Shown here: piece by piece, positions 1-58,667 of the stretch
Layout of the letters: every line of letters begins with the position of its first letter
Position numbering within the stretch: position 1 is the first letter of the stretch
Origin: Artocarpus heterophyllus
Taxonomy: Eukaryota > Streptophyta > Magnoliopsida > Rosales > Moraceae
Length of the DNA: 64,000 nt
Direction: 5' to 3'
Assembly (NCBI GenBank): GCA_025403435.1
Contig: CM046351.1
Span: 27,493,730-27,557,729, forward strand
Position numbers and translations under genes: made by a program
Notes under the pieces: model-generated
Seen by the model: the letters and a program-made list of their open reading frames with translations, nothing else
The model's database searches: none
What the model was told of the DNA's origin: nothing

Positions 1-1142
1 TTTGTCGAGCAATTCCTTTAATTGCTTATGAAGCTCCTTTAACTTTGCTGGGACCATTCTATACGGTGCCTTTGAAATCGGGTCGGTGCTTGGAGCGAGC
101 TCAATCTCAAATTCGACATCTCTATCTGGCGGTAAGCTTGTTAGGTCATCGGGAAATACTTCTGAATATTCACATACTGCAGGCACATCTTCAATTCTTG
201 TCTTTTCTTCTTGACTTCTATCTACAATGTTAGCCAGATAGCCCATGCAACCACTCGCTAACAATTTCCTTGCTTTCATGGTGGATAAAAACACACTGGG
301 TGTCTTTCTGGATTCGCCAACAGACACGAGCTTTTGATCACCTTCTAGATGGAAGATCACCTTTTGTTTCTGACATTTAATAGAGGCCTTGTACTTGCTC
401 AGAAAATCCATCCCAAGAATCATATCATAGTAGTACATGTCAATCACGATAAGGTTGATGAAGAGTTCCCTATCAGAAATCCATAGGGGTACTGTACGCA
501 GACAGTGCGTAGATACTATCACTTCCTTGGGAGGTAGTGTCATAGTGAATTCCTGTCTCATAGGCTCTAAACGAACCCCTAACTTCTTAGCAAATGACGT
601 AGATACAAAAGAATGTGTGGCACCCGTATCAAAAAGGAAATAAGCATCAATAGAAAGACTTTATATCTGACCTGTGACCACATTAGAGGCTTCAGTAGCC
701 ACTTGTTCTTTCGTCATGGCATAGATGCGGGCATTCGTAGATGGGGCTTCAAGTCTTCCTTGACTGATCAGTGGTCTTTCGAAGGAAGCTTGCATCTGAT
801 GGAGTTGGGCTTGAGGAGGAGCTCTTTAAGGGGCATTAGCATTCGTCTGGTTGGGGTAGTTCTTGGTGAAATGATCTTCTCGCCTAGATATAAAACACTG
901 ATTAGTCCCCATACGGCATTCACTAGGATGTTTCCTTCCATATTTGGTGCATGGTTGAAACTGCCTATTGTTGTTGTTGTTGGGCTGGCCGCTATTATGC
1001 TTCTTGTTGCCCTGGTTTTGTTGGTTTTTAGGATTGTCCTTCCTCTTGTTGTTCCTCCAGTTTTGATTGTTGTTGTTGTTGCTATTGTTGTTGTTCCAGT
1101 GTGGAGGGCGGTTTTGGCTGTTTGTATTACTGGCTGGCTAAC
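1..1142 (-). pseudogene. Chromovirus gag tail, protease and RT N-terminus
   Basis: Read on the minus strand this stretch encodes, in order, an Asn-rich gag tail (about 1130-960), a CCHC-like knuckle (about 950-860), a retroviral aspartic protease with catalytic DTGATHSF at about 635-612 and the ILGMDFL motif near 425-405, and the RT N-terminus with SKAPYRM at about 85-60. The RT continues beyond the window. The plus-strand valine-rich frame at 613-1155 is a shadow of the Asn-rich tail. The piece ends at 1142, where the Athila/Tat-type element is inserted; its gag N-terminus resumes at 13080. Confidence 0.88.
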
Positions 1143-3275
1143 TGATGAGACTTAGAAAATGCACTTTTCTTAACAAAAAAATCAAGCATTTTTCATTAAT
1201 ATTTCTCATAAAACTCCTCAATTATAGCAATTCAGTGATAAAAAGTGTTTTAATGTCTTAGTATGCAAATGTGTTTAAAAATGTATTTTTAGTATGTTTT
1301 TATGTTCAATAATATTTTTAGTAATTTTTGGAGTCGTTTAAGTGTGTTAAATAAGTGTTTAAATAGTTAAAACCATAAAAATAATGTTGTGTGATTTTAT
1401 TTTAAGTTTTAATGTGTTTGATAGTGTGTTTTAAGTTTGTAAATATGTCCTATTATCTTTTTAGTGATTTCTACAAATATCTCCAAGTCAAAAAAATAAT
1501 ATATGTGCTAAACCGAAAAAGACTAAAAATTTTAGAAGTTTTTGATTAATTTTGTGTGTTTTAATGTAAAATAAATATTTTTAATGTTAATGTAAATATT
1601 ATGTTTGTAAAATAATTAATTTTAGTATGTCTGTGAATTTTAGATTTGAAATCTAGAGGAAAAACAGAGTAAAACGGTGCAAAAACGGATAAAATCGAAC
1701 ATCAAATGCATAAAAAATAATTAAAAATTTTAATTTAAATTTAATGGAGACGCATGGCGTCACGAGAGCTGTTGGATTCATTGTGAAATTGATCTCAACC
1801 ATCCAACCGAGGTCCGCATGTCGTTGCGTCATCCCTTGCGTCAGCCGAATCTTAGAGTGTAGTCCACGTGGCGTTTTCTGATTGGCGCGTGTAATTCACA
1901 CTGCAGACAAAGCTGCAGTGAAAGTTAGAGGAGCAACTCAGGCCGTGTCCAATCTCATGCAGTCGTCTCCACATGCTCCCACTTTTTTAGCCGTCCGATG
2001 CGATGACCAAGACTAATCTAACGGTCTTCAATCTCGATCCTACTGGTCCCACCTGGGCCCATTCTCATTCGCATTTGGAAGCCGTTGGATTGCGAAATGA
2101 ACGAACTAGACTGCACTGTTTCAGTGCTACCATTTACTGCGAAGCAGAGAATTACAAACGAATTCTCACGTCCATCAAGATGTCTCAGCGCAAAGAAAGA
2201 GAAGGAAATTGGTTTTTCAACGCTTGAATAGTAAAAATAATTAAAGAATAGTAACTCTTTCATGCCTATAAATACCGAGCTATCCTTCAGGTCTTAGCAC
2301 CCCCTCTTGCAGTATGAGAATGCTGCTATAATAGTTATAGTTTAGTTTTTATTTTAGTTTTCAGTCTAGTTTCTTGTAAAATATTTTCTAGTTTATGTTG
2401 TAAAAATTATGCTCAATAATATGAGTAGTACTTTATTAATTATGTCATTCTAAATTTCTTTTTAGCTGAGGGAGAGGGGGAAATTTTGGAAAAATTATCT
2501 TAAATATTTTTAGTTTTTCTTAGTTTTCTAAGCTATTGTAATGCCAAAATATTTTCTTAGAAAACTTAGAATTTCAATATTTTCTTACCTAGAACTCTAC
2601 CAAAATTACGGTTCTGATTTATCGACGACATAGACTAGCACAGATAATGCTTGGGAGGACCTTGATTACTCGTAGACAGAGAATGGCTCGGTAAATGCTT
2701 AACTTACTATCTTGGTTGTTATTTTAGTTAAGTTATGTTGAAATGCTGCTTATTTATTAACTTGTGTTTTTGCTACATTATAGAGATGGAATGACACAAT
2801 AAATGCTTGGTAAATCTTGATTTATTGTCGACATAGAATGGCATAGTGTATACTTAAACCAACTAATAAATAAAAAGAGAAACTTAAATATATTGAAGAT
2901 AATTGCCAGAACAAAACCTTTAAACCTCAATCTTGTTATTATTGTTGTTTTACCTCTTTAAATTGTCGTTATTATTGTTGTTACTCTGCTTAAGTTATTA
3001 TTTGCATTTCTTGTTATTAAAGTTCCAAATTATCAAAATTTAAAGATGAAAAATGTTGTAAAAATGTGTAAATATTGTAAATACATTCTATAAATAATAA
3101 ATATTAATCCTCAAATTTTTTAGCTTAAATAAAAAGAAAAAGTTAACATAATATATGTACTAGAACTGAATAAATCCTTCCCTATGGGTTCGACCTCGGA
3201 TTCAACAAGTAAATATTACTTGAGACAATCTTATACTTGGGGTTATTTTAGAATGCATAAATAGACGTGAGATCA
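1143..3275 (+). repeat. 5' LTR of the Athila/Tat-type element
   Basis: 2133 bp, TG...CA ends, aligned with 10949-13079 by eye over its whole length. The first half is very AT-rich. The region 1745-2260 is GC-richer and contains ACGTG-core boxes (for example CCACGTGGCG at 1863). A TATA box follows at 2267. There is no protein-coding signal: the short frames at 2003-2263 are present on both strands and in both LTRs, which fits LTR sequence and not a gene. Confidence 0.92.
2267..2274 (+). promoter_or_regulatory. TATA box of the 5' LTR
   Basis: TATAAATA preceded by CATGCC and conserved in the right LTR at 12072-12079. It lies downstream of the GC-rich, ACGTG-containing part of the LTR and about 1.7 kb before gag. 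Transcription would start near 2300. Assigned from position and conservation only. Confidence 0.6.
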
Positions 3276-3281
3276 AGTTTT

Positions 3282-3303
3282 TGGCGCCATTGACGGGGAA
3301 CGG
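3282..3303 (+). other. Primer binding site (tRNA-Asp type)
   Basis: TGGCGCCATTGACGGGGA begins 6 nt after the LTR end. It is close to TGGCGCCGTTGCCGGGGA, the complement of the plant tRNA-Asp 3' end used by Athila/Tat elements; two bases differ. Confidence 0.8.
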
Positions 3304-3964
3304 TATTGTTTTCAGTGCAGTATAATATTATATAATATATTTTCTTTTTCTTTTATATATTACTAACTTTTCTGTTCTTTTGTTTTATTTCTTTTCTTTT
3401 GTTAATATCTTCTATTTTGCAGGTATTAAGTACTGTTCACATAGAAATCTGCATGCATTTTCTGTAAGTTAATATTTGTAGTAGTTACTATTCATGTCAC
3501 TATTTTAATATTAAAAAAAATTAAAAAAAATATATTAAAAAAATCAAAAATCATAAAAAAATTATTTTCTCTCATTTCTTTTGTAAAATATTTATTTTGC
3601 TAGTTTTAGGTTTTTGCCTTATAAATAAAACTTCATAAAATTTTAGATTAGGTTTTCCATAATACTTAATAAATAAATTGTGTTTTTGATAAAAGTATTT
3701 TTTGAGAAAGTTTTGTTTGGGGATTGGTACTAGTTCGGAATTCTTTCCCATAATCGGTTCACTTTTGGAGATTCTCCCAACACCAGTCATTCCTAGAACG
3801 TTGTTTTGTCAAGGAGATTGGTTCTTAAGGAGCCTTAGCACCACCAATCTTTCCTAGGGACATTCTTGAAAAATATAATTCACAAACTTCACAAAATCAA
3901 TAAGGCAAATACTTTTCATTCACTACTCTACTCTTCTTGAGTAGAGAAAAGCTTAGTATTTGTC

Positions 3965-3972
3965 TATAAAAT
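3965..3972 (+). promoter_or_regulatory. TATAAAAT box before gag
   Basis: TTGTCTATAAAAT lies 25 nt before the gag ATG at 3997. The same 13-mer recurs before the unknown ORF at 7103, and a variant precedes the LOG-like ORF at 8479. It is too close to the ATG for a normal leader, so the match may be chance or a re-used element module. Confidence 0.3.
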
Positions 3973-3996
3973 TTTGTAAATATTTAAATAATTTGT

Positions 3997-5136
3997 ATGC
4001 CAGTTTGGTTTCGTGAGTCTAATAGTCGTAGGTTAGTTAAGAAAAGTTTAGAATCACCTTTCGTCTCTGTTGTGTCTTCAAATTCACCAAAAATGGCTGA
4101 TGATGAAAGTGTTCATAATGAAAATATTGTTAATCAACAACTCATCAATCCTGCTGTTCACTCAATGAGAGATTATTTGCAACCACCTCGTGAATCCACT
4201 CCATCATGTTTGGTTTTTCCTCTCAATGCTCATCACTTTAGGTTTAAACCTGGGATGATCAACTTGCTTTCCAATTTTCATGGCTTAGAATCTGAAAATC
4301 CATATCTACACCTTAGAGAGTTTGAAGATGTTTGTGCTACCTTCACTGACCAGGAAGTTTCAAATGAAATTGTTAAGCTTAAGCTTTTTCCTTTTTTTTA
4401 AAAGACAAAGCTAAAACTTGGCTTACTTCTTTAAAACCTAGGTCAATAGGTACATGGCAAGAAATGCAAACTGAGTTTCTGAAAAAATTCTTTCCAACAT
4501 ATAAGACTAATGCTTTAAAAAAACAAATTCAAAATTTTTCCCAAAATGCAAAAGAAGTTTATTTCCAATGCTGGGAACGATTTAAAGATTTGTTGAATTC
4601 TTGCCCACATCATGGTTTTGAAAAATGGTGTTACATTAGTTTTTTTTATGAAGGCTTAACTCCTAAAACCCTGTCAATTTGTTGAAACAATGTGTAATGG
4701 AGAATTCCTTGATAAAGAACCTGATGAAGCGTTAGATTTTCTTGATAATTTAGCTAATAACTCTCAATACTGGCAACATAGTAATTCTGAAGGCTCAATT
4801 AGATCTAATATTGCTAATGCTCAAAGAGGTGTCTATCAACTTAGTCAAGAAAATGATCTAAGTGTTAGAATTGCATGTTTGGCTAAAAAGATTGAAGCCA
4901 TGGAACGAAGGAATGTCCAAGAACCCAAAATTGAAATTTTGTGTAGTGTTTGCCAAACTCTAGGACACTCAACTTATGAATGCCCAATTTTTAAGGAAGA
5001 GTCCCATGAACAGATGAATTACACAAATCAATTAGACCCACCTAGAAAGCCATTTCCATCCCCACATTCTGACACATACAATTCACAATGGAAAAACCAT
5101 CCCAATTTCAGTTGGAGAAATGATAAACCACAATAG
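3997..5136 (+). pseudogene. Athila/Tat-type gag, two frameshifts
   Basis: Nucleocapsid/capsid precursor. Frame 1 (3997-4401) has the capsid-like segment FHGLESENPYLHLREFEDVC typical of Athila/Tat gag. A run of eight T at about 4391-4398 then shifts frame; the reading continues in 4402-4685 (KAKTWLTSL, FLKKFFPTY) and after a second shift near 4683 in 4690-5136 (VETMCNGEF, EALDFLDNLA). A CCHC knuckle, CSVCQTLGHSTYEC, lies at about 4951-4992, followed by the FSWR segment usual in this clade. The copy cannot make an intact gag. Confidence 0.88.
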
Positions 5137-5792
5137 CACTATCAACCACCACCACCACTTCCACCACAAAATTCTTAAGGCCGTCCACCATTTCTGTCAA
5201 ATTCTCAAAATTTTCAAAGGCCTCCACAAAATTTTTCTGAAAATCTCCAATCTTGAGTCAAAACTCTTGAAGACCTTTGCAAACTTTCATTCAAGCTCAA
5301 AAATCATTCATTCAAAAATAGGAAGTTCATAACACTCGCACTTCTCAAGACATTCATGAAATTAAAGAATCCATTTCTAAACTCACTTCTTCCCTTCGCA
5401 TTCAAGAAAAAGGCAAATTTTTTGCTCAACCTGTACATTATCCATCTGCAAATGAAATTGCCTCTTCTAATTCATAATCATAACAAGAAACTGTTAATTT
5501 TGTTACAACTCTTTGAAGTGGAAAAACTATTGATAAGACTAATCTTTTAAAAGATTAGAAAGTTAATTCAACCTTGAAAAGTGGTGATAAAATTAATAGT
5601 GATGAGGAAAATTCTGAAAAAGAAAAGAGTGTTTCAAGAGAGAAATTTGTTCCAAAGATTCCATTTCCTCAAGCTTTGCTTTCAAAAGAGAAGTTTGACA
5701 AAAATGCTGAAATTTTTTAACTGTTCAAACAAGTCAAAATTAACATTTCACTTTTAGATGCAATCAAACAAGTCCCATCTTATGCTAAATTT
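5137..5792 (+). pseudogene. Degenerate gag to protease linker
   Basis: Pro/Gln/Ser-rich linker between gag and protease with several stops and shifts. The end of the region (from about 5765) reads AIKQVPSYAKFLK, a conserved Athila/Tat segment just before the protease. Nothing else is recognisable. Confidence 0.6.
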
Positions 5793-6308
5793 TTGAAAGA
5801 TTGTTGTACAATTAAAAGAAAGCATAATGTGACTAAAACTACATTTTTAGCTGAGAATGTTAGTTCCATCATTCAACATCATTCATCATTAAAATACAAA
5901 GATCCTGGTTGTCCCACAATTCCTTGTATCATCAGAAATACTCAAATTGAACATGCTTTGTTAGACCTTGGTGCTAGTGTCAACCTCTTACCTTATTCTG
6001 TTTACCAGCAATTAGGTTTAGGTGAACTAAAGCCAACTTCTGTCACACTTCAACTAGCTGATCGATCTGTAAAAATTCCAAGAGGTGTTGTCGAGGATGT
6101 GTTAATCCAAATTGATAAATTTTACTACCCAGTAGATTTCATTGTTTTGGATACACAACCTGTCACAAATTCAAATGTTCAAATTCTTGTCATTTTAGGT
6201 CGTCCATTTCTTGCAACTTCTAATGCTTTGATTAATTGTAGAAATGGAATACTAAAATTGTTTTTTGGGAATATGACTTCAGAATTCAACATTTTTAACA
6301 TGGCATAA
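5793..6308 (+). pseudogene. Athila/Tat aspartic protease
   Basis: A 171-residue open stretch. The active site ALLDLGASVNLLPYS is at residues 55-69 (about 5955-5999) with the DLGA form usual in this clade, and the flap/C-terminal motif ILGRPFL follows near 6190-6215. The frame really begins upstream, since the codon at 5793 is TTG. It ends at 6306-6308 (TAA), where autonomous relatives would continue into RT. The protease fold itself looks undamaged, but the gag upstream is shifted. Confidence 0.85.
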
Positions 6309-6329
6309 TCACCCTCTGGAAAGTGTGAA

Positions 6330-6728
6330 GTGAACTTTGTTGAGCGTAGTACTTCTGGAATGTTTGTTGATCCTTTGGCTGATTTGGCTAATTCTTTTGA
6401 TTCAAATGTTCCACCCAAAGTTGATAACCATCCTGTGAATGTTTTTGACCAATCTCTTGAAGCTAAAAAGTCAAGTTTTGAAGCTAAATGTGGAAATAAA
6501 GTTTTTGAAGAAGAACTTGAGGATGAGGTGATGGGTGACACTATGGATGACCTCATGTATGATCTCATGGATGAAGAAGAATTTCAACAAAGATTATTTA
6601 CAGCTGTTGGCAACTTAACTTTTTGGGAGTGCTATCTTTTGGGAAGGTTTAGAGCAACTCTTCCAATAGTCATCAGCATTGATGATTCTGACTTCGAACC
6701 GAAAACTGAAATCATAGTTATAGATTAA
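6330..6728 (+). pseudogene. Acidic spacer after the protease
   Basis: A 132-codon frame, acidic (EEELEDEVMGDTMDD around codons 56-70), in the place of the protease-RT spacer of Athila/Tat polyproteins. No RT motifs (such as a YxDD box) follow in any frame up to 10948. I read it as the remnant of the pol linker at the left edge of the lost or replaced pol region. Confidence 0.5.
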
Positions 6729-6821
6729 TGTTTGTGTTGTATTTATGTTTTTGTATTTGTTTGTTGAATCTTTATTTTCTTTGTTTTTCCTAAAAATCAG
6801 AAAAATAATTTCAAAAATTCA

Positions 6822-6905
6822 TTAAAATGGCAGAAATTATGGAGGTTATAATCAGCACGATTAGTTGGTATTTTTGTATCAACGACCTCTAGAAACGCAT
6901 TTTAA
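6822..6905 (+). other. Structured stem-loop R0 (GAAACG family)
   Basis: Outer stem TTAAAATG/CATTTTAA (6822-6829 with 6898-6905, 8 of 8). Internal loop GCAGAA on the 5' side and GAAACG (6892-6897) on the 3' side. Inner stem TGGAGGT/ACCTCTA (6840-6846 with 6885-6891, one G.U), enclosing a further hairpin GTTGGTA/TATCAAC (6864-6883). Same layout as the other four hairpins but larger and with CAGAA for CTGAG. Confidence 0.55.
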
Positions 6906-7102
6906 ATGAAATGATTTTCAATGAATTTTTCTGAATTTTAGATCTCTGTAAAAAAAAATGAAAAACTTAAAAGTACAAAAATATTTTCATTTCTAAGTAA
7001 TCTGTTAGGTTACTTTTTTTTAGCCCATTTTAGTTTAGCACATTATTCTCGCATGCATCTGTATAGTCTTCCCCGTGTCTAAACAGAAATCCACCCCTTG
7101 TC

Positions 7103-7110
7103 TATAAAAT
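7103..7110 (+). promoter_or_regulatory. TATAAAAT box before the unknown ORF
   Basis: TTGTCTATAAAAT is followed by a pyrimidine-rich tract (about 7135-7370, many CTCTCT and TTCTT runs) resembling a plant 5' leader, and then ATG at 7377. This suggests that the ORF has its own internal promoter within the retrotransposon. Inference from sequence only. Confidence 0.4.
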
Positions 7111-7376
7111 CTGTTACTGTGCATCTAAGCTTAAGAATCTTTGTTCTTTCTCTTTCTAAATTTCTTGTTCTCTCTCTCTCGAATTCTCTCTATCTTCTTG
7201 CTAAAATTCCAAGAAATTCTTCAAAACTCTTTCAAAGTTCTTCAATCTTTCAAACACTTTTTCTAGAAAATCTTCAATCTCCTTTTCTTCTGCTTCCACA
7301 AAAAAACTTCACAATTCTCTCTCAAACTCTCTCTTAAAGCTTTCAATTCACTCTCAAGAATCTCAATTCCTCAATC

Positions 7377-7919
7377 ATGGATCCGAAATATGAGCACTTA
7401 AAGAAATATTTCCCTTCACTTTCTCAAAGAGAAATCAGAAAGAAGTACAAAACTAGAGTCACTCGTCTTTAGGTACTTTCATGTTTTAAGCTTCCTACTG
7501 ATATTAAGATGTACATAGAAGGTCTTGTTCATTCAAGTGATGTAAATAATGTTGGTTTGCCTGGTATGGGTACAAGTCTATGTGCTAGAAAAAGAAGAGC
7601 TCGTCATATGGAGTCAAAATGTCATAAATGTTCTTGTCAAACTTGTTCCCGGAAAATGTCCCTCAACTGGTTTTGTATCTAGAAATAGGGAAGATAAAAT
7701 TTAGTTATGTAAAAATGGTCTTAGGAATGAAAACTTAGAAGATCTCCGAGTTTCTTTTGAGTCCCATCCAAGTGGATACGTTTGGGGGGCTATGAAACAA
7801 CTCTGGCCTCAATTTCATGTAGAAAAAGAACGTCTTGGGAATCTGACACTAAAAGACCCAACTGTTCAGTTTGCAAGAATGTTAGATGGAAAACAGACTC
7901 AAGATCCTTCTACTTCATA
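7377..7919 (+). pseudogene. Unknown ORF in retrotransposon, degraded
   Basis: Starts at ATG 7377 (MDPKYEHLKKYF). An in-frame TAG follows at codon 32, the frame continues through a basic, Cys-rich patch (KCHKCSCQTCSRK, about 7619-7657), then a shift near 7660 leads into a second frame that reads LEDLRVSFESHPSGYVWG and QLWPQFHVEKERLG and stops at TAA about 7917-7919. One more stop lies near 7703. Together about 180 codons. I do not recognise the family. The codon pattern across the breaks looks like a once-coding gene, not random sequence. It lies between protease and the LOG-like gene in the space where pol should be. Confidence 0.5.
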
Positions 7920-8042
7920 ACAAGGTTTGTAAAGTATTTTTCTTTGTTTCTTTGTGTGTTTGTCTTAAAAAAAAAATCATCATAAAAAAAATAAAAAAAG
8001 GTTGAAAATTTATTCAAGATATGATCATGGTTTTAATGAAAA

Positions 8043-8090
8043 TCATCAAAACAACTGAGTAATGGAATTTCTGGAAACGTGTTTTGATGA
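8043..8090 (+). other. Structured stem-loop R1 (GAAACG family)
   Basis: Outer stem TCATCAAAACA/TGTTTTGATGA (8043-8053 with 8080-8090), 11 of 11 pairs. Internal loop ACTGAGTAA and GAAACG (8074-8079); inner stem TGGA/TCTG (8063-8073) with two G.U pairs. It lies between the unknown ORF and the LOG-like ORF. Confidence 0.65.
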
Positions 8091-8478
8091 ACAAAAGTTT
8101 TCTTTAACTCATTCTCGAATAAAATTTCATCAACAAAAAGATTTTTATTTTTTTGTGATTTATACAGTTGATGTTTAATAATTGTGATTGTACTATCTAT
8201 CTTATAATAATAATATCTTGACTTTTCTTCTTTTTTCAGATGCATAATTTTCTTCAGTAGGTATCTTGTTTGTCGTGTAAGATAAGCTTTGCTTTGAATT
8301 TTAAAATTTAGTCCCATTTGTCAAAAGTTGTACAGTAAAGTCTAGTTTGTCAAAAGGTAAATAGTTTTGTTGGGTACAAGTTGTCAAAAAAATTCTGCAG
8401 GTGTGTCACATTTATCTGTCCCTGTCTGTCATCATAGTTGTCTTTACTTAATTTTACCCAACGTTCTCTTTAGGTGTG

Positions 8479-8486
8479 TATAAAAT
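8479..8486 (+). promoter_or_regulatory. TATAAAAT box before the LOG-like ORF
   Basis: GTGTATAAAATCC lies about 90 nt before ATG 8576, a reasonable TATA-to-ATG distance. Between them is a stretch of 14 A around 8540. Same box as at 7103 and 3965. Confidence 0.4.
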
Positions 8487-8575
8487 CCTTTTAGTTCTTA
8501 AGTTTTTCTCAGAGCGAATTTGTAAGATAGAGTCAGTAAAAAAAAAAAAAAAGAGTCTTAGTCTTAGTAATTATC

Positions 8576-9214
8576 ATGGATTCCTCGTCCTAGTCATCTT
8601 TAAAGTTCAACAATATCTATGTGTTTTGTGGTTCTAAATCAAGAAAAGGCATTGATTACATAGAAACTGCATTTCATTTAGGCTATGTCTTGGCTAAGAA
8701 AAAGATAAACGTTGTCTATGGAGGAGGTAGTCTAGGTTTAATGGGTATTGTCTCTGCTGGAAGACGTTCTGGAGGTACTAGAGCTTTTGGTATTATTCCA
8801 GGTGTCCTCGCTCAAAGTCGTTTATGTGGTCCTACCATTGGTGTTGAAAAAATAGTTGTAGGTATGCCTGAGGGAATAAGAGACATGAAGTTTGCTTCTG
8901 ATACTTTCATTGCTTTACCTGGAGGTTTAGGAACTCTAGAAGAACTTTTTTCCATTGCTAGTTGGAAATTGTTAGGACTACACTCTAAACCTATTGGTTT
9001 GTTAAATATAAATGGTTACTTTGACAATTTGCTTAGTTTTTTAGATCATGCTGTGGAACAAAAGTTTCTTGAGGAGTCAGGAAGAAATATTTTTATCTCT
9101 GCCCCTACTGTAGAGGAATTGCTCAAAAAGATGCACGTCATTGATCTTGAAACGGACACTACAACATCAAAGTTCTGCGAAAAATGCAAACGAGATTGGG
9201 ATCTTTCTCTCTAA
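8576..9214 (+). pseudogene. LOG-like (cytokinin riboside 5'-monophosphate phosphoribohydrolase family) ORF, one nonsense codon
   Basis: LOG enzymes release active cytokinin bases from their riboside monophosphates. From ATG 8576 the frame has 212 codons, the usual LOG length, with a single break: TAG at codon 6 (8591-8593), one step from CAG. Visible family marks: FCGS at residues 17-20, YGGGSLGLMG at 48-57, PGGLGTLEE at 115-123 with the conserved final Glu, KPIGLLN and SAPTVEELLKKM near the C-terminus. The MHxRK catalytic motif is changed to MPEGI (97-101): the aligned Arg is Gly100, with an Arg two residues on. The last residues, FCEKCKRDWDLSL, are an unusual CxxC tail. Plant LOG genes have several introns; this copy has none, so it probably came from an mRNA. 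It sits in the pol position of the retrotransposon. Whether any enzyme activity was ever kept is unknown. Confidence 0.85.
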
Positions 9215-9501
9215 ACTCTACCTCTTTTAGTTTTACTTACAACATTATTGTTTTTGTCTTTGTTTATGCATTTGTCTTTGAATAACCGCTCTTGTAAGTA
9301 TATGTTGTTACTATTTTTACTTAATCTTGTTAAACATTGAGAACAGTGTTCAATTTAGGTTGGGGGAGAAGGTTATGTCATTTTTTTTCTTTTGTGATTG
9401 AATCTGGGACTAGTTTTAAAAACAAAGCAAAAAAAAAAAAACCTTGAAAATAAAAAAGAAGTGTGCTTTTTGTAAGACTTTAAGATTCATGTGTTCATAG
9501 G

Positions 9502-9544
9502 TCGAGATGACTGAGTGAAGGTTTTGTCTTGAAACGTGTCTCGA
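9502..9544 (+). other. Structured stem-loop R2 (GAAACG family)
   Basis: Outer stem TCGAGATG/TGTCTCGA (9502-9509 with 9537-9544), six Watson-Crick pairs plus two G.U. Internal loop ACTGAGTG and GAAACG (9531-9536); inner stem AAGG/TCTT (9518-9530). Confidence 0.55.
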
Positions 9545-9618
9545 TAATGGTCTAAAAATGAAGTCCTTTGTGTTTGTAAATTCTTATCTCTACATCTTTC
9601 TTTTGTAGCATGCAAGTT

Positions 9619-9668
9619 TGAAGATGGCTGAGGTAAGGAGTATTTAATATTCTTGAAACGCATCTTCA
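9619..9668 (+). other. Structured stem-loop R3 (GAAACG family)
   Basis: Outer stem TGAAGATG/CATCTTCA (9619-9626 with 9661-9668), 8 of 8. Internal loop GCTGAGGTA and GAAACG (9655-9660); inner stem AGGAGTAT/ATATTCTT (9636-9654) with two G.U pairs and a TTA loop. Confidence 0.6.
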
Positions 9669-9673
9669 CCTTG

Positions 9674-9725
9674 GTAGAAATAGCTGAGTAATAGAATGAC
9701 TAGCATTCTTGAAACGTATTTCTAC
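9674..9725 (+). other. Structured stem-loop R4 (GAAACG family)
   Basis: Outer stem GTAGAAATA/TATTTCTAC (9674-9682 with 9717-9725), 9 of 9. Internal loop GCTGAGTAAT and T-GAAACG (9711-9716); inner stem AGAATG/CATTCT (9693-9709) with an ACTAG loop. It begins only 5 nt after R3. Confidence 0.6.
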
Positions 9726-10936
9726 ATGATTGTAAAAACTGTGTGTTTGCATTGCATTTATTAATTAAAAAAATAAATAAAAATTAAAAATCTAAAAATA
9801 TTTTCGGTGATTTGTCTCCTGTCCAATGACGACATTAAGATTATAGCATTTTCATGACTTAAGGTAAATTTTAAATATTATTTAAGTTTATGTTAGTTTC
9901 TTTAGTTTGACATATATTTAGGATGAAATTTTCCCCAAATTTGAACACTTAATCTTGCACTATGATTTGTTATATTAATTTAGAGACTGTTTATGTTAGT
10001 ATAATTTGGTTTATTTTTATAAAATCTTATAACTTGTTTAAATCCCTCTTGAGGCAAAATCCTAGATAACACTAAGTTATAGATATAATTTAGGCCATCT
10101 TTGGATCGTTTGAGCCTTTGAAGCTAACCTGTTTACATTTTATATCCCTAGTTACCTCGTTGTGCTTAATGTTCTATTTTCTTTGTTACCCATATATTTA
10201 ACCTAGCCTTTTTAATAAATTCATAATCCTTTTCTTGTACCTTTCACTCATAAGGCATTTGTTCTTTCAAGTGAAATCGGATTTATGAAGTTAGGATGAG
10301 TTAGGAATATCTATTACCTCTGAAAAATATGTACGTTTATTGTAACTCTTCAGTTATTTTGTATTTCAGTAAAAAAAAAACTTTTTTAAAAAGAAGAAAG
10401 TTAAATAAAAAAGTGGTTGACAAAGGAATTTTCATTTCGAGTTCGGGATTGTAAACTTTGGGAATTGGATTGTACATTTTAAAGGTTCGAGATTTTTATA
10501 AGTGTCTTATGGGTGAACTGAGCCTTAAATATATCTTTCATCCTACCTTTAACCTAAGCCGTACATTACAAGCGGAATAAAGTCCTAAAGGTCTTTAACA
10601 AGGTGTTATTCTACATTAGTGGAGAGAGGGATAAAAACAAATTTATAAGAATTTATTTAAATAAATTAAGATATATTAATGTAAATTTATCTGCTTAATA
10701 TGCATTGATTAGTAATAGAAATTCACACACACAGAGAGGAAAATTCATCTTAAATACTTGACGAACTCTAGAAATGAATCATAACTTAATTAATATTTAC
10801 ATCTTTACTTTGAGGCAGGAATATGAGATAAATCCTGAGGAAAATCAGTGAGGAATCACAAGTTTTTTTTTTTTAAAAAAACCTTTTGTCTGTTTTAAGT
10901 TTTATCGCTTTAATTGCTAGAGACTAGCAATAAGCT

Positions 10937-10948
10937 GGTTGGGGGGTG
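10937..10948 (+). other. Polypurine tract
   Basis: GGTTGGGGGGTG directly abuts the TGATGAGACT start of the right LTR, the expected place for plus-strand priming. Two T interrupt it. Confidence 0.75.
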
Positions 10949-13079
10949 TGATGAGACTTAGAAAATACACTTTTCTTAACAAACAAATCAAGCATTTTGC
11001 ATTAATATTTCTCATAAAACTCCTCAATTATAGCAATTCAGTGATAAACAGTGTTGTAATGTCTTAGTATGCAAATGTGTTTAAAAATGTGTTTTTAGTA
11101 TGTTTTTATGTTCAATAATATTTTTAGTAATTTTTGGAGTCGTTTCCGTGTGTTAAATAAGTGTTTAAATAGTTAAAACCGTAAAAATAATATTGTGTGA
11201 TTTTTTTTAAGTCTTAATGTGTTTGATAGTGTGTTTTAAGTTTGTAAATATGTCCTATTATCTTTTTAGTGATTTCTAAAAATATCTCTAAGTCAAAAAA
11301 ATCATATCTATGCTAAACCGAAAAAGACCGAAAATTTTAGAAGTTTTTGATTAATTTTGTGTGTTTTAATGTAAAATAAATATTTTTAATGTTAATTTAA
11401 ATATTATGTTTGTAAAATAATTAATTTTAGTATGTCTGTGAATTTTAAATCTGAAATCTAGAGAAAAAATGGAGCAAAACGGTGCAAAAATGGATAAAAA
11501 TCAGACATCAAATGCATAAAAAATAATTAAAAATTCAAATTTGAATTTAATGGAGACACGTGGCTTCACGAGAGCCGTTGGATTCACTGTGAAATTAATC
11601 TCAACCGTCCAACCGAGGTCCGCGTGTCGTTGTGTCATCCCTTGCGTCAGCCGAATCTCATAGTGCAGTCCACGTGGCGTTCTCTAATTGGCGCGTGTAA
11701 TTCACACGGAGACAAAGCTACAGTGAAAGTCAGAGGAGCAACTCAGGCCGTGTCCAATCTCGTGCAGTCGTCTCCACATGCTCCCACTTTTTTAGTCGTC
11801 CGATGCGATGACCAAGACTAATCTAACGGTCTTCAATCTCGATCCCACTGGTCCCACCTGGGCCCATTCTCATTCGCATCTGGAAGCCATTTGATTGAGA
11901 AATGAACAAACTAGATTGCACTGTTTCAGTGCTGCCATTTACCACGAAGTAGAGAATTACAAACGAATTCTCACGTCCATCAAGCTGTCTCAGCGCAAAG
12001 AAAGAGAAGGAAATTGGTTTTTCAACGCTTGAATAGCAAAAATAATTAAAGAATAGTAACTCTTTCATGCCTATAAATACCGAGCTATCCTTCGAGTCTC
12101 AGCACCCCCCGTGCAGTATGAGAATGCTACTATAATAGTTATAGTTTAGTTTTTATTTTAGTTTTAAGTCTAGTTTCTTGTAAAATATTTTATAGTTTGT
12201 GTTGTAAAAATTATGCTCAATAATATCAGTAGTACTTTATTAATTAAATCATTCTAAATTTCTTTTTAGCTGAGGGGAGAGGGGGAAATTTTGGCAAAAT
12301 TATCTTAAATATTTTTGGTTTTTCTTAGTTTTCTAAGCTGTTGTAATGCCAAAATATTTTCTTAGAAAACTTAGAATTTCAATATTTTCTTAGCTAGAAC
12401 TCTGCCAAAATTACGATTTTAATTTATCGACGACATAGACTGGCACGGATAATGCTTGGGAGGACCTTGATTACTCGTAGACAGGAATGGCTCGGTGAAT
12501 GCTTAACTTACTATCTTGGTTGTTATTTTAGTTAAGTTATGTTGAAATGCTGCTTATTTATTAACTTGTGTTTTTGCTACATTATAGACATGGAATGACA
12601 CAGTAAATGCTTGGTAAATCTTGATTTATTGTCGATATAGGATGACATAGTGTATACTTAAAACAACTAATAAATTAAAGAGAAACTAAAATATATTGAA
12701 GATAATTGCCAGAATAGAACCTTTAAACCTTAGTCCTGTTATTATTGTTGTTTTGCCTCTTTAAATTGTCGTTATTATTGTTGTTACTCTGCTTAAGTTA
12801 TTATTTGCATTTCTTGTTATTAAAGTTCTAAATTATCAAAATTTAAAGATGAAAAATGTTGTAAAAATGTGTAAATATTGTAAATACATTTTGTAAATAA
12901 TAAATATTAATCCTCAAAATTTTCAGCTTAAATGAAAAGAAAAAGTTAACATAATATATGTACTGGAACTGAATAAATCCTTCCCTGTGGGTTCGATCTC
13001 GGATTCACTGAGTAAATATTACTTGAGACAACCTTATACTTGGGGTTATTTTAGAATGCAGTAAATAGACGTGAGATCA
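10949..13079 (+). repeat. 3' LTR of the Athila/Tat-type element
   Basis: 2131 bp, colinear with 1143-3275, ends GTGAGATCA at 13079, and is followed by the CTGAC target-site copy and then the chromovirus gag. It keeps the TATA box at 12072-12079 and the ACGTG boxes. Substitutions scattered along its length separate it from the left LTR. Confidence 0.92.
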
Positions 13080-13847
13080 CTGACCAGATTGAGGCTGGTT
13101 CCTTCTTAACTTGGACAGATGGACGTCGGGATGTTGGGCCCTTAGAACAACCTGCTCCTGACTTCTGGGTGGACTTGCCCCATCAACGATCGCAACAATT
13201 TCTGCCCTGGGAACTCTGATCAGTCTTCTGACCCTTTCACTTTCATTGCTAACCATTCCTAGTCAAAGACGAGCCAGCTGATCAAATTTTGCCACTACAT
13301 CGGTGACCGACATATCTCCCTGGCGCAGGTTCTCAAACTCATCATAATGCTTCCTAGTAATGTTCATGTGGAAGAACTTCATGTTGAACTCCTGAACAAA
13401 GTCTGCCCATGTCATCTCGTCAACATTCCTGCTCAATTCTATGCCATCCCACCAAATTCTGGCCTGCATGGTGAGATAGTACGATGCACAGAGAACCTTC
13501 TCATTGTCAGTAAAGCCCATGAGTCTTAGAGTGGCCTCTATCGTCTTTAGCCATCCCTAGGTGACAAGTGGATCCTTGGAGCCTTCAAAGTCTGTCGGCT
13601 TAACTCTCTTCCATCTGACTAAGAGCAGTACCTTGTAGGCCGCTTTGGGTTCAACAATAGGGGCTGGGAACTCATTAACTTGTGGCTGAGGAGGAGGAGG
13701 AGGAGGAGGCACATCATTGCCTTGTCGATCATCGTTGCGGCCATTAGCCCTTAATTCAGCAATCTCTCTTCTTTGCTCTTCTAATTGTTTTCGCAACTCA
13801 GCGATCATCATCGTCAACATCTCGTTGGTCTGAGTGCGGGTTTGCAT
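13080..13847 (-). pseudogene. Chromovirus gag N-terminal and capsid part
   Basis: On the minus strand gag starts at 13847 (MQTRTQTNEMLTMMIAELRK) with a coiled-coil-like Glu/Arg segment and a run of Pro near 13700. A stop follows near 13557. The capsid part reads WWDGIELSRNVDEMTWADF and FENLRQGDMSV (13520-13263), then after a stop SERVRRLIRVPRAEIV and QPQSGQ down to 13080. There the Athila/Tat-type element interrupts it; the rest of gag is at 1142-960. At least two stops, so it is not functional. Confidence 0.85.
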
Positions 13848-14304
13848 TCTTCTACAGCCGTCCTTTGTTAATTTCCTAAAAGAATTAGGAGCTTAAGAAT
13901 AATCTTATAACTATGAGACAGGTATTCACTACTAGGGCTTTAATCATTAAACATCTAAACCTTATTCTTATCATCATACTTGCATCTTAACATTTAACTT
14001 TAAAACATACTTACTTGGAGGACTTAGACCGACGTGTGGCGATATGAATTGTAAACGAAAATTTGCCCCTATACCAAAGCCTGTAATGCCCCCTTACGGA
14101 CGTTACAGATGTCGTTACATTCATTCATTTAACCATTATTTAAGATAAACTATTTGAATAAAAAGATAGTTTGAAGGCATAACCCATGATCCATGCATAC
14201 ATTTTTTTTTCAACTTAATCATAAACATCCTTTAAATAGATTACCAGTACCATAGTATAACAAATTAACTTTTTAAAACTTCTTAAAGGAATATCTTCAT
14301 TTAT

Positions 14305-31402: not shown

Positions 31403-34400
31403 TTAACTATAGATACATCTACAAAACCAATTAAAAAAGATTGAAAAATGAAATAATTTAAAGAAAAATATTAAAAGTAAATTAACATAAAAAGGTTTAT
31501 TGATGCTCATCTTTTTATCTTTTTTTTTCATTGGTTCCTCAATACATATCCATTCCACATCTTCATGAAGCAAGTGCGAAACATCATCTTTAAAATTATC
31601 TATCTCTTCAACTAGTGGCAATCCCTTTGTGAATGAAGGGATGTCTGAGCAATCCTCATCAACTTCTTCACCGTTGATAACTATTCTTGGCTTTGTCGGG
31701 ACAACTAGAGAGCTCCATGTCTTACGGATCTATAGTATAAAAAACTTGGATTGCTTGTGATGCCATAATGAAGGGATCATTCCTGTATCCTAATCTTCTA
31801 AAGTCAACCACCGTGATGCCGTTATTGTCATTCTTAACATAGTTATTGTAGGCCCACTTGCACTTAAAAAGTGCTATGCGTAATCCCCCATAATCAAGTT
31901 CTCAAATATCTTCAATGAAACTAAAGTAGTTCATGGTCCCATATACCGGATTCTTGTCCTTGGCGGAGGCAATATGCATAGCCTTAGCACTGAGTGTCAC
32001 ACTGTTATTTTGCACCGGATGCTTCTCATCTCTTTCGCGAGTGTAGAAAGTGTAACCATTTATGGAATATGACGTATACCTTGTAACTACCGACAACGTC
32101 CTTTAGCTAGGTTCTTCAACTCCTATGACATGCCTCCATCTTGTGATGTGGAGCACTTGCCATAGATGTGTGCTCTAATCCACAACCGAAAGGTCTAGTT
32201 GTGTTCATCTTGTAACCACTTCTCATTTCTTGCTCTTTTTGGGTATCCTTTTTTTACTTCGTTCATGTGCACCTCAATGAAAGGCTCTACTTCATTAGCA
32301 TTGTGCAAGACATAAAGACAAGCTTGCTCCCACTCGTCTCGATTCATTGATGAAGGATTGCCCATAGATAGTCCCCTAGCCTCAATGTTTATAGTCTTTG
32401 GCACCCCAATTGTGTCCATATTAGATAGGTACTCGGAGCAAAATTCAACCGATTCCTTAGCTATGTAACTTTCTACAATACATCCCACTGGCCTATTTCG
32501 ATTCTTCACATAGCCCTTCAAAACCTTCATTTATCTTTCAAATGGGTACATCCATCTCAAATACACCGGTCCGCATAACTTAACTTCATGTACTAAGTGC
32601 ACCGTTAAATGAATCATGATGTCAAAAAATTCCGGTGGAAAATACTTTTCAAGCATGCATAAGGTTTGCACCAACTCTGATTGCAGTGAATCTAGCACAA
32701 GTGGATCAATGACCTTCGAGCATATTGAATTGAAGAACGAGCACAACTTGGAAATTGCATATCTCACATCCTTTGTTAGAATTCCCCACAAAGCAAGTGG
32801 TAGTAATTACTGCATCAACACATGACAATCGTGTGTTTTTATGCCAATAAGTTTCAAATCCTTCACTGACACCAACTTTTTGAAGTTTGAAGAATAACCG
32901 TCTGGCACTTTTAATGAAGCAAGCCATTCACAGAGCTTTCTCTTTTCCGCTCTAGATAACGTGTGCTTTGCTGGAGGTAAGTAAGTATGGTTCCCTCTTT
33001 TCTTGAAAAACAAATTAGGCCTAATCTCAATTTCCATGAGATCCAACCGAGCTTTTTCACCATCCTTAGTCTTGCTCGGAATGTCAAGCAACGTGCCGAC
33101 TACAGATTCACATAAGTTTTTCTCAATATGCATAACATCCAAGCAATGACGAACAAAAAGTCTCTTCTAGTAGGGAAGATCGAAGAGGATTGATCTTTTT
33201 TCCATGGTCCATCATTTGGCGGCTGGTCCTTACCTCGCTTTCTCTTACCAAATACGACTCTTATATCTTTTGCTATTTCAAATATTTGTTCACCTGTTAA
33301 AGGGTGAGGGGGGTTTCTTTCTTCGTTGTTGCCATCAAAGGCTTTCTTTTGTTTGTGGTAGCGATGATCTCTTGGCAACCATCTTTTATGACCAAGAAAA
33401 ATAGTTTTCTTTCCATTCTTTAACCGTTTGTGAGACATTTCCGTCATGCAAATAGGACAACCAATAGAACTCTTCATCGAATAACCAGATAAATTGCCAT
33501 ATGCGGGGAAGTCGTTAATTGTCCATATCAACATTGCACGGAGTGTGAACGTCTCTTTTTGGTAAGCATCTCTAACTTTAACTCCATTTTCTCACAACTT
33601 TTTTAGGTCATCGATTAATGGTGCCAAGTATATATCAATGTCATTGCTTGGTTGGTGAGGACCCAAAATCAATAGAGACAACATTAAAAACTTTCGCTTC
33701 ATGCACAACTTCGGAGGGAGATTGTAGTTAACAAGTATTACGGGCCAAGTGCTATGCATACTACTTATGTTACCATGTGGGTTCATTCCATCTGTTGACA
33801 AAGCAAAATGTATGTTTCTTGGATCTGCACTAAAGTTGGGATGATCGGCTTCAAAAATTTCCATTGTGGTGAATCCGTCGGGTGTCTAAGCATACCATCA
33901 TCCACTCATTTGTCATGATGCCATGTCAAATTCTTGGCATGTTCTAGGTTTTTGAATAAACGCCTCAAACGTGGTACCGGTGAAATGTATCATAACACTT
34001 TTTTTGGCACTCCATTCTTGTCATCTTTTGGCTCCTTTCCTTTCTTCCACCTTGCTTGTTGACAAACTGGACAATAATTCTCGTCCTTATACTCATGCCT
34101 ATAGAGAACACAATTATTTTCACAAGCATGAATTTTCTTGTAATCCATTCCCAAAGTACTCAAAGTCTTCTTAGCCTCATATCTACTAGTTGGTAATTTA
34201 TTACCCTCTGGTAGAAGCCTTCCTAAAAATTCCAACAACTTTGTGAAACTAGAATTTGACCACCCACCCGACGCTTTCAAATTCTATAATCCAACTAAAG
34301 TAGACAATTTAATGAAATTAGTACACCCCTCATACGCGGGTGCCTCTGCATCATTTATCATTGTCTCAAATAAATCCGGATGGTGCACAAAGTGTTCTTC

Positions 34401-40060: not shown

Positions 40061-41335
40061 GGTTTAAAAGAGACTTGGATTTCAAATGGCGGTCCCATCT
40101 TGAAAAATTTTCCAAACAACAGGTCATGACTTCCAATAACTGATGCATATGGAATTTTTTTATGTATTGAACTTCATCAGAATTTTTAGGAGACAGTTCC
40201 TTTGATCGAGTAATTCCTAATTCCTTTTTGGAATTTTACATCAAATACTTTTTAAGTATTTTATCTCTACACAAGGCTTGAGATAAAGCTATGAGCTTGG
40301 TCTTTCTATCTCTATAGTCAGATCTCAAGAATATAGCTCGCTTTACGCAGATTTTTCATTTTATGTGTGAAATTGCTACTAAACTGTGCTCGCAACTACC
40401 ATGGTATTATTATCAAAAGTTAGAGATCTCTTGTAACTAAAGAGAGAAAAATATAGGAAACTGAGAAATACCTATTAATTTATGGGAAAAAAAAATTTCC
40501 CATGAGCTCTCTAATTCAACCACACTTAAATATTGGACGTGGGAACAGTGACTATATGTACTTGTTGTACTCGTATAGAGCTGCCATCAGAATACAGCCA
40601 TTCCATTGATTTGAAAATTTTTCCACCAAAAAACCATCTCAAAGAAACAACTGCAGATCCCAATTTTTTGACCCTCTGGTTTTTACCCCAAATAAAGTGA
40701 TTCAGTCATCCACCATTGAGACATAAAATCTACAGAGACATAGAGCATAAAAGGAAAGACTGGAGAAGTGGCTATATATACTCTTAGTGTCACAATCCAC
40801 ATTCTTTTCTTTGCAGCAAGGTTAGGAATTTTAAGACAGAAAAAAAAATTTTAGGAATTTTTAGGAGTTTTGAACAACCCTCTAAGAAAGGGAGCTTATT
40901 TAAAGAATAAATAGATAAATGAAAACAATTCAGAAATTGTAGAAAACAGCAAAAGAAAACTCAAACTCGCAGGAAGTTAAAGAGAACTTAGAAAAAATGA
41001 ATTAGCAATAACTGCAGACCCTAAAATGTACTATGAAAATTGCCAACTTTCTTAAGAGTGCGACGTTATTCAGTAACCATATGAGAGTAATGTGCATAGC
41101 TCTCTAATACAAGCCCAAATAGATCCAAAAACAGCGAACACCATGGACCACTAAAATATTTTGGCCAACACTTCATAGAAAAGCGGACAAAGAATTATGG
41201 CAATGAAGAATTGAAAACGGATAATACAAATACAATAGACCAGTCATTTTTTTTAATTGGATATATAGGGTTTTAGGGAAAGGATTTGTTTCAATTACAA
41301 GAAAGAAAAAAAAAAGAGAAAAAAAAAATTCAGTC
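40061..41335 (+). promoter_or_regulatory. Upstream region of P450 gene 1
   Basis: AT-rich, no other gene. Possible TATA boxes: GGCTATATATACTC near 40782 and GGATATATAGGG near 41260. The second lies about 75 nt before the ATG and is the better placed. Just before the ATG is an A-rich leader. Confidence 0.4.
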
Positions 41336-44300: not shown

Positions 44301-44860
44301 TCATGAACAAGGCAACACAAGAAATTGATACAGTAGTTGGAAAAACCAAACTAGTAGAAGAGTCAGATATTGCCAACCTTCCTTACATCCAAGCCATAGT
44401 TAAAGAGACACTAAGGCTGCACCCAGCTGGTCCATTGGTACTCCGGGAATCATCTGAAAATTGCAGTGTCAACGGCTACAATATCTCAAAAAAGACTCGC
44501 GTGTTTATCAATTCGTGGGCTATTGGCAGAGACCCTAAGAATTGGAACGACCCTCTTGAGTTCAAGCCAGAGAGGTTTCTTAGCGAAGAAGGTAGTGTGA
44601 AGAGTCAGTTGGATGTGAGAGGGCAGAATTTCCAGCTTTTGTCTTTTGGCAGCGGAAGAAGATCATGCCCGGGAACATCACTTGCACTCCAGGTTGTTCA
44701 AACTAGCCTTGCTTCAATGATTCAGTGTTTTGAGTGGAAATTATTAGTTGGTGGAGATAATGGAAATGTTGACATGGAAGAGGGACCTGGGCTTTCCCTA
44801 GTTAGGGCTCATCCCTTAATTTGTCTTCCGGTTGCTAGGTTTTTTCCATTGCCCATGTGA
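41336..44860 (+). CDS. Cytochrome P450, CYP93A-like (gene 1; exons 41336-42241 and 44222-44860)
   Basis: ER-bound heme monooxygenase of 514 residues. Exon 1 (302 codons) has a membrane anchor at residues 5-25, the Pro-rich hinge [11 protein letters not shown] (36-46) and WKFMKKL. A 1980-bp phase-0 intron (GT at 42242, AG at 44220-44221) follows at the site conserved in CYP93 genes. Exon 2 has the I-helix AGTGTS (307-312), ETLR (364-367), PERF (418-421) and heme loop [10 protein letters not shown] with Cys451. Family known: CYP93A enzymes include pterocarpan 6a-hydroxylase in legumes, CYP93B flavone synthase; the substrate here is unknown. Oddities: Asp310 of the I-helix is Gly, residue 400 is Ser where gene 2 has Leu, and Pro443 before the heme loop is Ser. 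The frame is open, but activity is doubtful. Start chosen at the first ATG, which gives the family N-terminus. Confidence 0.9.
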
Positions 44861-54500: not shown

Positions 54501-55180
54501 GGCTATATCGAAAAGATTCTTAAGAGATATGGCATGCAGGATTGTAAACCAGGTGATACCCCTGTGGCTAGGGGAGACAAGTTTAGTCTCAATCAGTGCC
54601 CTAAGAATGATTTTAAGGCTAAGAAAATGCAGAAGATTCCTTATGCGTCAGTAGTAGGGAGTCTAATGTATGCTCAGGTTTGTACACGTCCAGATATTGC
54701 GTACGTTACAGGGATGTTGGGCAGGTACTTAAGCAATCCTGGAAAGGATCACTGGGTAGCAGCCAAACGAGTCTTGAGGTATTTTCAAAGAACAAAGGAT
54801 TACATGCTCACGTATCGGAGGTCAGAATAGCTTGAGATCATTGGGTATACTGACTCTGATTTTGCTGGATGCCAAGATAGTATGAAATCTACATTGGGCT
54901 ATGTATACCTTCTGGCTGGAGGTGTTGTCTCTTGGAAGAGTGTTAAATAGTCTCCTATAGCATCTTCTATAATGGCGGCAGAGTTCATAGCGTGCTATGA
55001 GGCATCTAATCATGGAATATGGCTGCGGAATTTTGTCACAGGGCTGCGTATAGTGGACAGTATTCAAAGACCACTCAAAATATTTTGTGACAATAAGTCA
55101 GCAGTTTTGTATTCCAACAACAACAAGAGCTCGACAAAGTCAAAGCATATAGAGATCAAGTTCCTAGTTGTGAAATAAAG
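51535..55180 (+). pseudogene. Copia gag-pol without protease core
   Basis: Gag from about 51567 (IPMLNGSNFKSWQDNLLIVL), stop TAG near 52088, then a basic region and knuckle CFFCGAAGHKKKHC (52311-52352). Directly after YHSWRAR the reading jumps to KFRLLLKTGFYLDLDETF: the protease active-site stretch that normally lies between them is missing. GAG-pre-integrase and integrase: HTDICGPFPTA (52848), [30 protein letters not shown] (53169). RT 53823-54830: TAFLNGDIDETIYM, LYVDDILLAS (54331-54360). RNase H: GYTDSDFAGCQDSMKS, MAAEFIACYEAS, IFCDNKSAVLYSNN. Stops at about 52630, 52972, 53143, 53590, 53816, 54828 and 54949. Confidence 0.9.
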
Positions 55181-58630: not shown

Positions 58631-58667
58631 TGTACATAACTTTTGAAAATCATACATATTCAGAATC

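Follow-up and report, generated by a model that had tools for sequence, protein, structure and literature searches.

A LOG-like reading frame and a carlavirus-like partner in a pol-less family of LTR retrotransposons from Artocarpus heterophyllus

Canonical plant LOG (LONELY GUY) proteins are cytokinin riboside 5'-monophosphate phosphoribohydrolases. A preliminary description of a 64,000-nucleotide stretch of the Artocarpus heterophyllus genome (hereafter the window) placed a full-length LOG-like reading frame inside an LTR retrotransposon, which raises the question of what such a protein could do for a mobile element and whether it would still activate cytokinin. The frame at 8576-9214 matched the Pfam Lysine_decarbox/LOG profile with an E-value of 2.3e-30, and its best match among PDB sequences was the Arabidopsis LOG At2g37210 (1.1e-52). 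Both YGGGSLGLMG and PGGLGTLEE are found in its translation. As described, the frame is intronless, lies between paired LTRs and contains a single nonsense codon in 212, a TAG at codon 6. All 163 of the matches to plasmid records were below 60%, and as the best PDB match is from a plant we set aside a bacterial origin.

The LTR retrotransposon that carries the frame spans window positions 1143-13079 and is nested in the gag of another element. The features of this region are as follows.

768 to 1142, minus strand: interrupted decayed gag of the older element, zinc-knuckle side
1138 to 1142, no strand: target-site duplication, left copy, CTAAC
1143 to 3275, plus strand: 5' LTR, 94.4% identical to the 3' LTR (blastn)
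3282 to 3299, plus strand: primer-binding site candidate, TGGCGCC..., found by eye close behind the 5' LTR
4078 to 6728, plus strand: decayed gag-protease region, with 10 stops where it aligns to copy L018
within 4383 to 4682, plus strand: gag, PF03732 (Pfam match)
within 5721 to 6305, plus strand: aspartic protease, PF13650 (Pfam match)
7377 to 7920, plus strand: second extra ORF, decayed in the window, resembling carlavirus-type nucleic-acid-binding/cysteine-rich protein (PF01623 and PF05515)
8576 to 9214, plus strand: LOG-like ORF of 212 codons with TAG at codon 6 (Pfam and PDB searches)
10937 to 10948, plus strand: polypurine-tract candidate, found by eye
10949 to 13079, plus strand: 3' LTR (LTR comparison)
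13080 to 13084, no strand: target-site duplication, right copy, CTGAC
13085 to 13892, minus strand: interrupted decayed gag of the older element, capsid side

Both LTRs have the termini TGATGAGACT...CGTGAGATCA, with identical ends of the TG...CA type. The pair differs by 82 transitions and 30 transversions over 2127 columns (K2P 0.055), which, for assumed substitution rates between 4e-9 and 1.3e-8 per site and year, puts the age at roughly 2 to 7 million years. The LTR pair of the preliminary description was recovered, as was its target duplication, but the latter is imperfect, CTAAC and CTGAC being identical at four of five bases. When one copy of the duplication was removed, both flanks shared one minus-strand frame of decayed gag containing three stops over 630 bases, one of them on the joint. 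Because the flanks fall in the same gag frame, we conclude that the duplication is real. The primer-binding site candidate resembles the tRNA-Asp-type site of Athila/Tat elements, and the family may be Athila-like. The gag and protease previously placed upstream of the LOG-like frame were likewise found there; the second extra ORF had been overlooked. Reverse transcriptase (RT), RNase H and integrase are missing from the window's element, in which about 1.07 kb separates the protease from the second ORF and leaves no room for pol. In the L018 copy gag was matched by Pfam, and the protease scored 24.2 bits against a cut-off of 24.3.

Rfam gave no matches at gathering score across the window. 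Elsewhere in the window are a tandem pair of similar two-exon cytochrome P450 genes on the plus strand (41225-44860 and 58647-61036), presumably CYP93-like, and decayed Ty1/copia-like gag-pol frames, identified by eye (51475-54830, plus strand). Fragments resembling a DNA transposon and LINE reverse transcriptases were also seen by eye on the minus strand (33100-33591, 47743-48726 and 56196-56639).

The window's own assembly (985 Mb) was searched for further copies. The preliminary description had anticipated many of them, and had named a sole copy or a nearly identical host LOG as signs of a chance retrocopy insertion. A 24-base subfamily motif pattern occurred at 148 places in the genome and its reversed control at none, and the best 150 of 5950 first-look candidates aligned over at least 192 of the 206 residues (80-100% identity), so that a single chance retrocopy was rejected. 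Host LOGs were located by motif pattern; a canonical LOG protein query ranked element copies first. The canonical motif occurred at 15 sites (control 0). The four that were read match an element copy in separate, exon-like stretches that are about 34-55% identical, and from these four of the 15 sites we also rejected a near-identical host parent.

Of 20 loci examined over 9.2 kb, 18 have an LTR-like stretch behind the LOG. In the 16 loci with a protease match, the protease, about 1.1 kb of sequence, the second ORF and the LOG are contiguous, again with no room for pol. L015 is a deletion form that has lost gag-protease. L023 is an LTR-LOG-LTR deletion form (positions 2092-8792 of this locus, which lies on C20 of the own genome); it lacks gag, protease and the second ORF, has kept the LOG alone, and its LOG frame starts about 120 bp behind an LTR. 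In L010 the full element has another LOG fragment and pieces of LTR next to it (1000-1130 and 31-480), which suggests that insertions of this family were nested or rearranged there.

For residue and codon analysis we used 61 LOG copies, namely the window and 60 places across the 150 best-scoring of the 5950 candidates. In this sample, which is biased to window-like, intact copies, 38 copies have no stop, 21 have one, one has two and one has three. Codon 6 is TAG in five of the 61, the window counted, so most copies lack this stop, as had been predicted. Recurrent stops were seen at codons 6, 100, 130, 206 and 208 (5, 5, 4, 2 and 4 of 61 copies, respectively); they are of the C>T/G>A type, a pattern expected from deamination of methylated DNA.

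The second ORF of the window contains three stops and one 1-base insertion relative to the open 184-aa frame of L013. When 20 copies were aligned, 18 loci were full length, and five of these (L009, L011, L013, L014 and L019) had no stop or indel. A database search yielded 34 of 54 candidates at E <= 0.001. The alignment made from them (A1) has 33 rows, comprising 32 of the 34 hits and the L013 copy; the fused models P0144 and P0155 were left out. Carla_C4 (PF01623) matched 23 of the 33 rows (E <= 0.01; best 1.5e-8) and Viral_NABP (PF05515) matched 16 (E <= 0.01; best 2.4e-8). These nucleic-acid-binding protein (NABP) matches exceeded the curated Pfam cut-off in P0122, P0124, P0129, P0137, P0162, P0174 and P0198. 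They fell under it in P0126, P0144, P0241 and P0269 (narrowly in the last two) and narrowly in the window's subfamily, where the scores were 20.9 against a gathering value of 23 and 18.5 against 20.9. P0163 and P0259 were unlisted at E 0.001 and were assigned from a precomputed domain and homology.

Three features of the second ORF are conserved: a run rich in K and R, a Cys finger and, beyond the viral match, the C-terminal half. The run followed by the finger and the two Pfam families are shared with carlavirus NABP/CRP. Unlike the viral proteins, the second ORF is 184 aa long, has its conserved C-terminal half outside the matched part and is encoded by an LTR element. An AF2 model of the NABP-like family had a pLDDT of 57, and no relative was found in viral contigs scanned with P0010 and with alignment A1.

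The likeness to carlaviruses might reflect convergence on a short basic Cys-rich finger instead of descent or a common function. Convergence would be in keeping with Pfam matches that extend over about 30-90 residues, stay weak for the window's subfamily and leave out the conserved C-terminal half. However, members were matched by two viral NABP models, several of them above cut-off, and the PF05515 match extends beyond the finger to about residue 120. We consider convergence the less likely reading. The PF01623 family presumably includes p12 of chrysanthemum virus B. That protein activates transcription in the nucleus and suppresses silencing in the cytoplasm (PMC7588395).

A database search with the LOG ORF identified many plant proteins among the best 120 of 7808 hits, several of them with tens to hundreds of members each. 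From the 120 models listed in a further search, for longer gene models with a LOG domain, 16 were added by hand to the set used for the residue counts. An NABP-type ORF and a LOG occur in one gene model in Orobanche gracilis (P0162 and P0174; PF01623/PF05515), Citrus (P0144, P0163, P0194, P0198, P0241 and P0269) and Acer (P0155 from Acer yangbiense, and P0168). The second ORF of P0163 and P0194 was assigned by precomputed domain and homology, and the fusions in P0144 and P0155 were recovered by the second-ORF search. Primulina P0259 combines an integrase and a LOG with a second ORF recognized by homology. As the two ORFs are joined in gene models from several plants, we conclude that the pair is a recurring module.

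Some of these models also contain pol domains. P0269 (Citrus x changshan-huyou) has RT, RNase H, integrase, Carla_C4 (20.0 versus 20.9 bits) and LOG in one model, P0190 (C. sinensis) has RT, integrase and LOG, and Primulina P0161 and P0193 have RNase H, integrase and LOG. The Citrus and Primulina models that join RT or integrase to LOG indicate that pol-bearing relatives exist. A gag-protease like that of the window's family is joined to LOG in models from Acer saccharum (P0195 and P0203), C. sinensis (P0189, P0241 and P0255) and Primulina (P0259).

In a careful phylogenetic tree, in which the motif and tail columns were retained as in all LOG trees, 36 element-type rows were apart from 13 host rows at 100/100. 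The 30 rows beyond the Sapindaceae type grouped at 100/96, and the Sapindaceae type itself at 82/59. Host and element-type rows were likewise split in a quick tree of 60 rows. The tested own-genome rows, 12 in number, form one group (100/100), the window's LOG shares its clade with the LOG proteins of Citrus and Populus, and both Acer saccharum and Populus alba contribute host-type as well as element-type rows to the careful tree.

The C. glutamicum LOG (CgLOG) provides a reference for the active site. Its Arg99 and Glu122 have been proposed to carry out catalysis as a pair, and its adenine/prenyl site is lined by Lys100, Glu125, His97, Met96 and Trp129 (PMC4979012). According to the text of that paper, alanine substitution of the listed AMP-binding and catalytic residues, Lys100 being named among them, nearly abolished activity, S19A excepted. 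We counted these residues after removal of the chimeric models P0001-P0003. Lys100 and Glu125 are retained in 11 of 11 Sapindaceae-type rows and in 9 of 9 canonical rows, although the canonical count is partly circular, as these rows were chosen by name, absence of element features and the RK motif. Both residues are replaced in every one of the 61 own copies (0/61) and in the Lamiales models (0/5), and among the other 99 hits Lys100 is found in one (P0004) and Glu125 in none. The catalytic residues fared differently: Arg99 is present in 52 and Glu122 in 60 of the 61 own copies. The window's copy has Gly where the catalytic Arg is expected, and the nine Citrus models retain neither Glu122 (0/9) nor Gly116 (0/9).

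The C-terminal tails are also distinctive. LxLxL occurs within the last 10 residues of 88 of 111 non-canonical hits and 0 of 9 canonical ones. Among rows of 205-230 aa it is present in 88 of 101, whereas shuffling the last 30 residues 200 times gave 1.7 such rows on average and never more than 6. Fourteen other loci of the own genome were fetched, of which nine entered the tree and tail count and five, several with frameshifts or cut ends, were omitted; these other copies and subfamilies end in DLNLxL or DLDLSL, and strict LxLxL was found in 7 of 9 rows. In the window's subfamily WDLSL mostly stands in place of LxLxL, and the latter motif is also missing from the Xanthoceras, Primulina and Orobanche rows (Lamiales and Sapindaceae type). 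By sequence, the LxLxL tails of element LOGs are like EAR repressor motifs. TOPLESS is bound by LxLxL-motif proteins such as RBE (PMC10942257).

The nearly universal loss of Lys100 and Glu125 outside the Sapindaceae type, the further loss of the catalytic Glu in Citrus and the LxLxL tails of most together make cytokinin activation doubtful. Element LOGs outside the Sapindaceae type are thus, judging from their residues, unlikely to be ordinary cytokinin-activating enzymes, and the active-cytokinin production proposed in the preliminary description is in doubt for the window's family. An alternative is that the element LOG still activates cytokinin, or frees bases from other nucleotide monophosphates, and so pushes cells to divide. 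Family membership is indicated by the Lysine_decarbox/LOG profile together with the predicted fold; the AF2 model of the L018 copy has the LOG fold (pLDDT 80; TM 0.75/0.91 to AtLOG3), which, like the catalytic Arg and Glu of most own copies, would suit an active enzyme. The full pocket of the 11 Sapindaceae-type rows, two of which are Acer models fused to gag-protease, points the same way, and Sapindaceae-type elements may well make an active LOG. Against this stand the near absence of Lys100 and Glu125 elsewhere, the severe effect of alanine at the listed CgLOG residues (PMC4979012) and the Citrus models that lack both catalytic Glu and Gly116. Outside the Sapindaceae type we consider it unlikely that cytokinin activation persists, and prefer a regulatory role.

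The next question was whether the ORFs had been maintained by selection. Median identity to the window was 95.5 for gag, 96.1 for protease, 93.9 for the second ORF and 94.7 for the LOG, versus 87.7, 86.3 and 89.8 for the non-coding parts between and behind the ORFs and 80.9 for the LTR (20 loci overall, 15-20 per part). One outlying gag value of 65.6% (L017) corresponds to an opposite-strand gag of another element. Coding parts had 0-3.1 gaps per kb compared with 34-61 in non-coding parts, the LOG median being 0.

Pairwise dN/dS of the LOG had a median of 0.605 (1830 pairs) and 0.538 among the 37 intact copies, and the window's LOG compared with the 60 other copies gave a median of 1.07. These values are a mix of constraint before insertion and neutral decay after it. 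Distant LOG subfamilies of the own genome gave a median of 0.19 (25 pairs; dS 1.7, near saturation), a second such comparison gave 0.22 (6 pairs; dS 0.84), and the window's subfamily against the nearest other copies gave 0.45 (20 pairs; range 0.35-1.08).

Shared and private variants were then compared, with C>T and G>A set aside because they recur in methylated DNA. LOG variants shared by at least four copies were N5:S17 and private ones N114:S34 (Fisher 1.2e-6). The direction was the same at cut-offs of 2, 3, 4, 5 and 6 and faded at 8 (p 0.07), and inclusion of C>T/G>A gave a weaker contrast (N41:S29 shared versus N158:S44 private). The private N:S ratio of 3.4 is close to the unweighted neutral opportunity of 1183:386; as private non-synonymous change is about neutral, many LOG copies are decaying. 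The contrast was weak for the second ORF (N2:S5 shared at cut-off 3 versus N37:S14 private, p 0.03) and for gag-protease (N15:S16 versus N113:S55, p 0.06). From these data we conclude that the LOG-like ORF was under selection while the element family was active. The earlier suggestion of selection until recently thus holds for the family and fails for the window's own copy. That the LOG is a passenger, captured once and co-copied with no role in the element's life cycle, would fit the near-neutral dN/dS of the window copy and the presence of at least one stop in 23 of 61 copies, but is very improbable and was rejected given the coding versus non-coding contrast in identity and gaps and the low dN/dS between distant subfamilies, to which can be added the mostly synonymous shared variants outside C>T/G>A, the retention of the frame across rosids and asterids and the survival of the LOG alone in L023.

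Structure, copies, coding constraint, ORF linkage, the LOG clade, loss of the pocket and, in most relatives, the LxLxL tail were all computed, and we propose the following explanation for them. The window element is a member of a high-copy, pol-less and hence non-autonomous family within a Ty3/gypsy lineage of LTR retrotransposons, moved by RT and integrase that a relative would supply in trans. Behind gag-protease, or behind integrase in pol-bearing relatives, the lineage carries an accessory module of NABP-like and LOG-like proteins, and the element would profit from what both of them do to its host cell. The NABP-like protein may act, like its viral namesakes, as a silencing suppressor, a nuclear transcription regulator or both. 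Beyond the Sapindaceae type, the LOG-like protein would have lost cytokinin activation while keeping the fold and mostly the hydrolytic Arg and Glu, and may handle nucleotides or serve as a regulator whose LxLxL tail recruits TOPLESS-type corepressors. Its likeliest role would be regulatory, exerted jointly with the virus-like protein. That most copies retain the catalytic Arg and Glu is nevertheless more easily reconciled with an active hydrolase than with a protein that is only an adaptor. We give an even chance to the overall explanation, that is, a pol-less Ty3/gypsy family with an NABP-LOG module whose two proteins serve the element via the host, the LOG being a regulator that mostly does not activate cytokinin. 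More tentatively, and well short of an even chance, a Ty3/gypsy lineage spanning rosids and asterids may possess a host-manipulation module made of a relative of the carlavirus silencing suppressor/transcription factor and a captured, TOPLESS-recruiting LOG whose pocket was lost once, the Sapindaceae type having kept it.

LOG sequences in LTR elements have a history. Steinbauerova et al. 2011 reportedly found two Athila-like elements to be similar to LOGL4. The preliminary description knew of no LOG case, yet a YgdH (LOG) domain has been published for LTR elements of the Ty3/gypsy type in Citrus and Populus (PMC9289625, in a section that cites the 2011 study). They resemble the window's element in having a LOG-family ORF within Ty3/gypsy, and Citrus and Populus LOGs share a clade with the window's. 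The window family differs from the account in that section in being pol-less and high-copy and in having had its selection measured; the section names neither the virus-like partner nor the loss of the prenyl pocket nor the LxLxL tail seen in the window lineage, and mentions no NABP-type domain (PMC9289625). As that screen began from RT domains, pol-less families would be missed. The m6A RNA demethylase ORF of Phalaenopsis Ty3/gypsy elements is likewise a host-type enzyme that was captured and kept; it is a different enzyme with activity demonstrated in vitro (PMC9289625). Compared with canonical plant LOGs, the element LOG shares the fold and, in most copies, Arg99/Glu122 and PGGxGTxxE; it differs in being intronless and element-borne, in its replaced Lys100/Glu125, in its separate clade and in the LxLxL of most relatives. 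Maize Bs1 is also an LTR element with a captured host gene, but the ORF of the window family is old, present in multiple lineages and selected. LOG in LTR elements is therefore already known; for the NABP-like partner ORF in LTR elements, the remodelled LOG pocket and the tail we found no report in the open-access literature, and they appear to be new. On balance, the observation made in the preliminary description is confirmed and its interpretation is partly supported.

Plant retrotransposons are usually viewed as passive targets of silencing. If the proposed explanation is true, LTR elements can be equipped with accessory weapons much as RNA viruses are, here a re-purposed hormone enzyme next to a virus-type Cys-rich protein, kept under purifying selection. 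Silencing suppression, cytokinin levels and TOPLESS recruitment by the NABP-like and LOG-like proteins are directly testable. There is also a warning for annotation: the Populus models P0016, P0034 and P0055, which bear the database name LOGL10, fall in the element-type clade, and on this placement they are probably transposon genes and may be devoid of cytokinin-activating activity.
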